From contig NZ_RKLR01000001.1 in NCBI RefSeq assembly GCF_019599465.1, forward strand, positions 434,001-498,000: DNA of 64,000 bases, written 5' to 3'. Within the stretch, counting starts at the first letter, position 1. Each line of letters opens with the position of its first letter. Origin of the DNA: Haloarcula rubra (lineage in GTDB: Archaea; Halobacteriota; Halobacteria; Halobacteriales; Haloarculaceae). Made by a program: the position numbers and the translations under genes. This document shows positions 30,632 to 31,495 of the stretch, in pieces. Under the pieces are notes generated by a model. That model ran no database searches. It had not been told where the DNA came from and saw only the letters and a program-made list of their open reading frames with translations.

Positions 30632-30777
30632 GGCGAACCGGTCCGGCCCGCCACGCTTTAGGCCCGCGAACGCGGCTACGTCTGCATCCCACACGCGGCC
30701 GCGGGGATGGAGGGGACCATCGTCGTCGAGGAGTGAGAGGCCGTGTCGGTCCGCCGGACGACCGATACGTTTTAGTG

Positions 30778-30795
30778 TTTTAGGCCCACCTAAAC
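30778..30795. promoter_or_regulatory. TTTAGG-ccca-CCTAAA operator-like palindrome (possible DtxR/SirR-type site)
   Basis: Perfect 6-bp arms with a 4-bp spacer. It sits 8-24 bp upstream of an ATG at 30802 and overlaps the expected TATA position (GTTTTAG repeats at 30769-30783). The arms resemble the TTAGG...CCTAA sites reported for haloarchaeal iron-dependent DtxR-family repressors; this link is from memory and not tested. Confidence 0.4.
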
Positions 30796-30801
30796 GAACA
30801 C

Positions 30802-30912
30802 ATGGTGAACCTGCCGGCACGGTGGCAGACGAACGGCCGCCGCCCGAGCGACGAGATGGTCGCCACCTGCCAGCACGTGGTCCCAGACCGAGCGACGGGA
30901 GGTGTTCGCTGA
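30802..30912 (+). CDS. possible 36-residue peptide or gene remnant
   Basis: Starts MVNLPARWQTNGRRP and stops at the TGA at 30910-30912. It follows an operator-like palindrome and a TATA-like element at leaderless spacing. The product is basic, with one Cys, and matches nothing I know. The adjoining +1 frame stays open into the antisense of the next gene, so a decayed or frameshifted gene is as likely as a real small protein. Confidence 0.25.
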   Translation: MVNLPARWQTNGRRPSDEMVATCQHVVPDRATGGVR

Positions 30913-31078
30913 AGTCGTCGACTCCCCCACACTTCGGCCTCCGCGGCGACGGCTACCGTGGGCACGGTTCGTCGGTCCGGTCGGACCGACGGCGTCGCCG
31001 CACCACGAGTTCCGACTCGTGTCTGTCCCATTTTCACTCGCGGTCCAGCGACGCCGGGCGTCGACCGACGCCCGGGAC

Positions 31079-31495
31079 TCATTCCACGACTTCCTCGACG
31101 GCCAGTTCCTCGAGCAACAGGAGTAGGTTGTACGCCGCGGTGGCGAGAAACCCGGCGACGAGATAGACGACCACCGGCCGTCGGTTCCCAGCGACGGTGA
31201 CGAGGAGGTACACCGCCGCCAACGTCCCGCCGGTCGCGACGACGTGGATGGTCGAGGCGACCAGCGGGGACTGCGACTCGGGTGGTGCCGCCGTCTCCGA
31301 GACGCCCCGGAACGCGAGGACCGCGAGCGTCCCGAACCCGCCTAGCGCACCGGCCACGTACGCCATCGCCCACGTGACGCCGGGGATGCCGAACGTGTGG
31401 ACGAGCAGGGCCCCACCGCCCCATATCGAGAGTGTGTAGCCGTACGCCTCCGATTCGGCCGCCAGATTCGATTCCAGACGAGTCCGTGCGTCCAT
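31079..31495 (-). CDS. four-helix membrane protein
   Basis: 138 residues with about four hydrophobic segments (YTLSIWGGGALLVHTFGI, AMAYVAGALGGFGTLAVLAF, ASTIHVVATGGTLAAVYLLV and VVYLVAGFLATAAYNLLLLL) and short charged ends. No family recognised. The APC permease gene lies just upstream in the same orientation, 35 bp away, so co-transcription is possible. Confidence 0.7.
   Translation of the reverse strand: MDARTRLESNLAAESEAYGYTLSIWGGGALLVHTFGIPGVTWAMAYVAGALGGFGTLAVLAFRGVSETAAPPESQSPLVASTIHVVATGGTLAAVYLLVTVAGNRRPVVVYLVAGFLATAAYNLLLLLEELAVEEVVE

Follow-up and report, generated by a model that had tools for sequence, protein, structure and literature searches.

The palindrome TTTAGGCCCACCTAAA lies in a gap of 447 bp (30632-31078) without an obvious target gene, which raises the question of what it controls. 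The window analysed here, a 64-kb stretch of Haloarcula rubra DNA, holds only this one match (30779-30794) with up to two mismatches, where 0.11 are expected by chance and at least one occurred in 9 of 100 shuffles. A preliminary description of the gap had reported TTTAGG-ccca-CCTAAA near a TATA-like element and a 36-codon ORF, and all of these are present as described, the ORF opening with an ATG at 30802. The palindrome, presumably the DtxR-family consensus (TTTAGG-N4-CCTAAA-like), overlies the promoter as a DtxR/SirR-type site, between the TATA-like element and the ATG at 30802; the elements at 30762-30775 are what we take to be BRE and TATA. The palindrome is real and functional-looking, and the target missing from the earlier account is a small RNA. 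The locus comprises the following features:

30662-30736, + strand: 3'-terminal remnant of a halocyanin-domain gene (ARERGYVCIPHAAAGMEGTIVVEE, then stop), outside the RNA; the gene is intact in G046 and G012
30744-30759, no strand: degenerate second operator TGTCGGTCCGCCGGAC, with 5 mismatches here, 35 bp upstream of the main operator
30762-30775, + strand: core promoter, BRE-like CCGATACG and TATA-like TTTTAG (30770-30775); CGA and T-rich columns kept in a 20-locus alignment
30779-30794, no strand: main operator TTTAGGCCCACCTAAA of the DtxR-family type; 29 of 31 loci have it exactly and the other two with one mismatch
30800-31035, + strand: predicted small RNA of ~230 nt, its 5' end placed from TATA spacing and its 3' end from the last conserved block plus ATTTTC
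30802-30912, + strand: 36-codon ORF within the RNA, with a conserved start codon and no detectable purifying selection on the peptide
30898-30904, + strand: GGAGGTG block, conserved in 28 of 31 loci
30943-30950, + strand: outer stem, 5' arm GCGGCGAC
30953-30964, + strand: ferredoxin-pairing segment CTACCGTGGGCA, with 12 contiguous Watson-Crick pairs to the ferredoxin start of its own genome
30970-30991, + strand: inner hairpin CGTCGGTCC-GGTC-GGACCGACG
30994-31001, + strand: outer stem, 3' arm GTCGCCGC
31004-31021, + strand: terminal hairpin CACGAG-N6-CTCGTG
31022-31029, + strand: invariant tail TCTGTCCC, followed by ATTTTC

The same palindrome is found at iron-acquisition genes of the same genome. 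Exact TTTAGG-N4-CCTAAA occurs at 9 sites genome-wide (0 for the reversed control), and 18 sites are found when one mismatch is allowed (1 for the control). Three tandem exact operators (L011:6261-6382) precede an operon of aminotransferase class III, pyridoxal decarboxylase, IucA/IucC-FhuF and GNAT acetyltransferase genes, which is a hydroxamate-siderophore cluster, and two operators, one exact and one with a mismatch, precede a transporter with periplasmic-binding-protein, FecCD and ATPase components. Sites with one mismatch adjoin a DpsA-like ferritin, and further sites adjoin a GMC oxidoreductase. Four strong proteins and one weak one score above the cut-off for PF01325 (iron-dependent repressor). 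By its sequence, the palindrome at our locus belongs to this iron regulon and is predicted to bind a repressor, and the earlier suggestion of a DtxR/SirR-type site is supported, the same palindrome standing at siderophore and iron-transport genes. Two other exact operators were also observed, one (L013:5677-5692) preceding a NorB-type oxidase gene by 92 bp and the other (L010:3309-3324) lying 87 bp upstream of a gene with HHH and MutS-domain-V regions, a surprising candidate member of the iron regulon.

Throughout the genus, the operator and the RNA are kept together. A DNA search with the 447-bp gap gave matches in 28 of 41 genomes (our own included), and the RNA scan hit 12 named contigs, ten from Haloarcula (among them H. 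pellucida, vallismortis, japonica, amylolytica, salina and rara) and two from Halobacteriales MAGs. With R1, a sequence-only model of the 3' block of the RNA, a single match per genome was found in 31 of 32 Haloarcula genomes and in 28 of 28 of good quality; the sole miss is G011, a 71%-complete assembly in which the ferredoxin discussed below is present. The RNA always stands behind the operator in the 31 loci that bear it, in the order second operator, 33-35 bp, main operator, ATG at +23, conserved blocks and CACGAG..CTCGTG TCTGTCCC. A second operator at -33 to -35 (up to two mismatches) is seen in 26 of the 31 orthologous loci, and GGAGGTG and ACCGTGGGC are each retained in 28. Conservation of the palindrome, on which the preliminary description had made its reading depend, extends to all 31 RNA-bearing loci. 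Outside the genus, R1 matches in other genera of the family are weak (E 8e-5 to 1e-2; 22 of 36 matching genomes), and an operator with at most one mismatch is absent from all 16 such loci that were checked; we take these matches as chance rather than as relatives of the RNA. An order-wide search for the operator plus GGAGGTG matched 14 of 146 genomes, six of them Haloarcula. The suggestion that an iron-controlled RNA is made here is thus borne out, as far as sequence can tell, by genus-wide conservation of RNA and operator and by an operator of the iron-gene type.

Could the operator instead be a relic, the promoter of a deleted protein gene that has no function now? A gene was indeed deleted alongside it. 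In ten loci, wherever the 3-8 kb of flanking sequence reached far enough, nucleotidyl-transferase/SAM_HAT genes border one side, accompanied in some cases by the halocyanin-domain gene, and permease/thermosome genes border the other; G012 differs in having other genes downstream of the RNA locus. The remnant at 30662-30736 (75 bp) corresponds to the last 24 codons and the stop of a halocyanin-domain gene, presumably so named from its C-terminal motif, of which H. pellucida (G046) and G012 have intact copies (724-822 codons). With the gene intact in these close relatives, this strain has lost a large blue-copper-domain lipoprotein. The earlier proposal that a regulated gene had been deleted, leaving its promoter, is wrong in that form: a gene was lost, but the halocyanin-domain gene stood on the same strand, upstream of the operator, and was not its target. 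The second operator is degenerate here, as might be expected of a relic; against this, 31 of 32 genomes keep both operator and RNA, and some of these still have the intact halocyanin gene upstream; we regard a functionless remnant as extremely improbable. The neighbour on the other side (31079-31495) encodes a membrane protein of 138 residues without a Pfam match or a PADLOC match, patchily distributed (4 of 60 genomes searched, our own included) and broken by a TGA in the G043 copy.

A leaderless mRNA that encodes a peptide of 36-43 residues induced in low iron, with the 3' part as its untranslated region, also seems quite unlikely as the transcript, even though in 30 of 31 loci the distance from the operator start to the ATG is exactly 23 nt and 29 of 30 ORFs measure 36-43 codons. 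G015 has no start codon, and in G018 the stop is lost, extending the frame to 114 codons. Synonymous changes make up 13 of 41 (0.32) among 14 genomes of one clade, against 0.286 expected, and 91 of 295 over ten pairs, at least three of which (L106/L107, L108/L123 and L076/L072) are noisy because of indels; of the 9 changes that separate the window from H. pellucida, 8 are nonsynonymous and one is synonymous. The peptides are basic and unlike one another between clades. Since the substitutions are neutral with respect to the protein, the ORF probably makes none, and we rejected the small protein on this pattern, purifying selection being undetected; the small protein proposed in the preliminary description is thereby set aside. 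The Shine-Dalgarno-like GGAGGTG is kept in the RNA even in loci with a different ORF frame. As a ribosome-binding site of a second ORF it was discarded, inspection by eye finding no consistent start codon downstream.

The non-coding RNA seems to have a conserved structure, as in iron-sparing small RNAs. We aligned twelve diverse loci by sequence alone (A3) and tested on them a hand-drawn structure consisting of the outer stem, the two closing pairs of the inner hairpin, a 9-bp hairpin and the terminal hairpin. Of 296 cells 97% are paired, although the structure was drawn from single-sequence folds, which biases the test somewhat in its favour. Changes on both sides occur at four pairs (shuffle mean 1.0; 1 of 500 shuffles as high), the covariation score was reached by none of 500 shuffles, and pairing is destroyed when the partners are slid. 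The + strand keeps G-U pairs (e.g. columns 36-49 and 34-51) whose counterparts on the opposite strand would be mismatched A-C, in agreement with transcription from the operator. RNAalifold on larger sets, poorly aligned and including a poorly aligned clade, gave 0 and 2 pairs with covariation, and the folding energy of the whole RNA is unremarkable (z -0.2 to -1.8; 13 of 31 RNAs). On the twelve-locus alignment the 3' part reads as a structured RNA with compensatory changes on both sides. At Rfam gathering score the RNA has no match, with chance-level hits to other families only, and it does not match the RyhB covariance model. An extra GC-rich insertion of ~75 nt separates the 5' part from the 3' domain in G010, G002 and G042 (L093, L095 and L104).

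The best-conserved inner segment, the near-invariant ACCGUGGGCA, is complementary to AUGCCCACGGU, the start codon region of the mRNA of a [2Fe-2S] ferredoxin, which we so name from its protein sequence (MPTVEYLNYE...CRAGACANC). In four genomes the complement TGCCCACGGT occurs at 7, 6, 10 and 5 sites with the RNA itself included (4-9 non-self), and the only non-self locus common to all four is the ferredoxin start codon, ATGCCCACGGTAGAG. The gene lies at G000:C22:81939-82325 (minus strand) in our genome; it is present in 32 of 32 Haloarcula genomes and begins with ATGCCCACGGTAGAG in 30 (G011 included). In each of the 31 RNA-bearing genomes the RNA can pair over its own ferredoxin start by 10-14 contiguous nucleotides, G.U allowed, and in G021 the 12-nt pairing there has an equally long match elsewhere. 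The longest Watson-Crick run is 9-12 nt (mean 5.9-6.5 in shuffled RNAs), a value reached in 0-12 of 300 shuffles and least exceptional in G015 (9 nt, or 14 with G-U). The pairing segment, partly inside a hairpin, would thus by sequence engage the start region of an iron-protein mRNA, a single target. The tail CTCGTGTCTGTCCC was considered as a pairing segment too; with up to one mismatch it occurs nowhere else in the genome, and no complementary site exists there at the same threshold.

Two genomes, G013 and G018, depart from this pattern on both sides. Their RNAs lack ACCGUGGGCA and carry UCGACGGUUGGCA (DNA GACGGTTGGCACC) instead, from which we predicted, before their ferredoxins were fetched, a start of ATG CCA ACC GTC. 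The start found was ATG CCA ACC GTT, AUGCCAACCGUUGA (DNA ATGCCAACCGTTGAG), the last base of which differs from the prediction and gives a G.U, so that its pairing with the RNA of its own genome spans 13 nt and includes one G-U. Both partners have changed at three positions (C-G to A-U, G-C to C-G and A-U to U-G). Natural duplexes, of which four were computed, have predicted energies of -22 to -28 kcal/mol, compared with -8 to -11 for two swapped pairs, whose partners reach about -23 to -25 in their natural combinations. In these genomes two separate genes thus carry matching compensatory changes at three positions, which count as one evolutionary event because G013 and G018 share the ferredoxin start and a near-identical 3' domain.

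How much of the complementarity could arise from the protein alone was judged from ferredoxins outside the genus. The gene was found in 58 of 59 genomes of an order-wide draw (our own and one congener included), and 48 outgroup starts were inspected, 46 of them readable (L197-L244). Codon 2 is CCC in 20, CCA in 17, CCG in 5 and CCT in 4, and all four codons are in use at position 3; codons 2-3 are therefore free to vary elsewhere. Valine codon 4 is GTA in 40 of the 46, across the order and despite GC-rich genomes, which indicates that GTA is favoured for another reason: this bias is a constraint on the mRNA start separate from pairing with the RNA. As codons 1-4 are partly conserved by the protein and GTA is also frequent beyond the genus, the complementarity in the other 29 genomes does not amount to 29 independent observations. 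One might accordingly suppose that the iron-controlled RNA is real and acts on something other than ferredoxin (or activates ferredoxin), the complementarity being chance combined with conservation at the protein level. The protein-conserved N-terminus, the presence of the same ATGCCCACGGT in 9 of 46 outgroup ferredoxin starts, and other invariant blocks of the RNA (UCUGUCCC, GGAGGUG) that have no assigned partner would fit this reading, which is nevertheless unlikely given the matched changes at three positions in both genes of G013 and G018 and a segment that falls exactly on the start codon and ranks with the best-conserved parts of the RNA.

We consider it very probable that the locus encodes a non-coding RNA of ~230 nt, predicted to be repressed by a DtxR-family protein and made in low iron, which would pair over the ferredoxin start codon and block translation or trigger decay. 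With enough iron, the repressor would sit on the palindrome between the TATA box and the transcription start and keep the RNA off; in low iron it would be released and the RNA made. The structured 3' domain may then present ACCGUGGGCA to the ferredoxin mRNA, where the hairpin loop GGGC (UGGC in G013 and G018) could nucleate on GCCC/GCCA beside the AUG, and the resulting duplex over the start codon would block initiation (or trigger decay), sparing iron. Which repressor acts, the direction of the iron response, and repression rather than activation are points that we infer.

RyhB of enterobacteria, PrrF, FsrA and NrrF are small RNAs that are repressed by iron regulators and silence iron-protein mRNAs. 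To our knowledge, the targets of haloarchaeal DtxR-family regulons are proteins, and we know of few archaeal small RNAs with a convincing target. The Haloarcula RNA resembles RyhB, PrrF, FsrA, NrrF and IsrR in two predicted respects, its repression by an iron regulator and its silencing of an iron-protein mRNA where translation begins; it differs from the RyhB group in belonging to an archaeon, having a DtxR-type rather than a Fur operator, being larger with a GC-rich junction, lacking an Rfam match and having a single target so far. It shares the operator type and the association with iron genes with the haloarchaeal regulons of Idr1/Idr2, SirR and TroR, although here the target is an RNA. 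IsrR is reported to be an iron-regulated small RNA that silences an iron-protein mRNA (PMC9410917), and Idr, SirR and TroR are named in PMC11349517. Archaeal small RNAs acting on mRNAs or transporters are likewise reported, s479 of Haloferax for zinc transport (PMC8155600) and sRNA162 of Methanosarcina for a transcription factor (PMC3510493), but neither target concerns iron. Among open-licence PMC papers on haloarchaea, iron, small RNAs, ferredoxin and iron sparing that our searches returned, none announces an archaeal iron-sparing RNA in its title or the start of its abstract.

The seemingly orphan iron box would be accounted for as the promoter of a non-coding gene, and this gene is likely the first iron-sparing small RNA in Archaea, Haloarcula-wide, evolved apart from the RyhB type and co-evolving with its target. 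G013 and G018 provide a natural two-gene compensatory swap that is ready for genetic tests. If our reading is true, switching off an iron protein by antisense RNA arose separately in bacteria and archaea.
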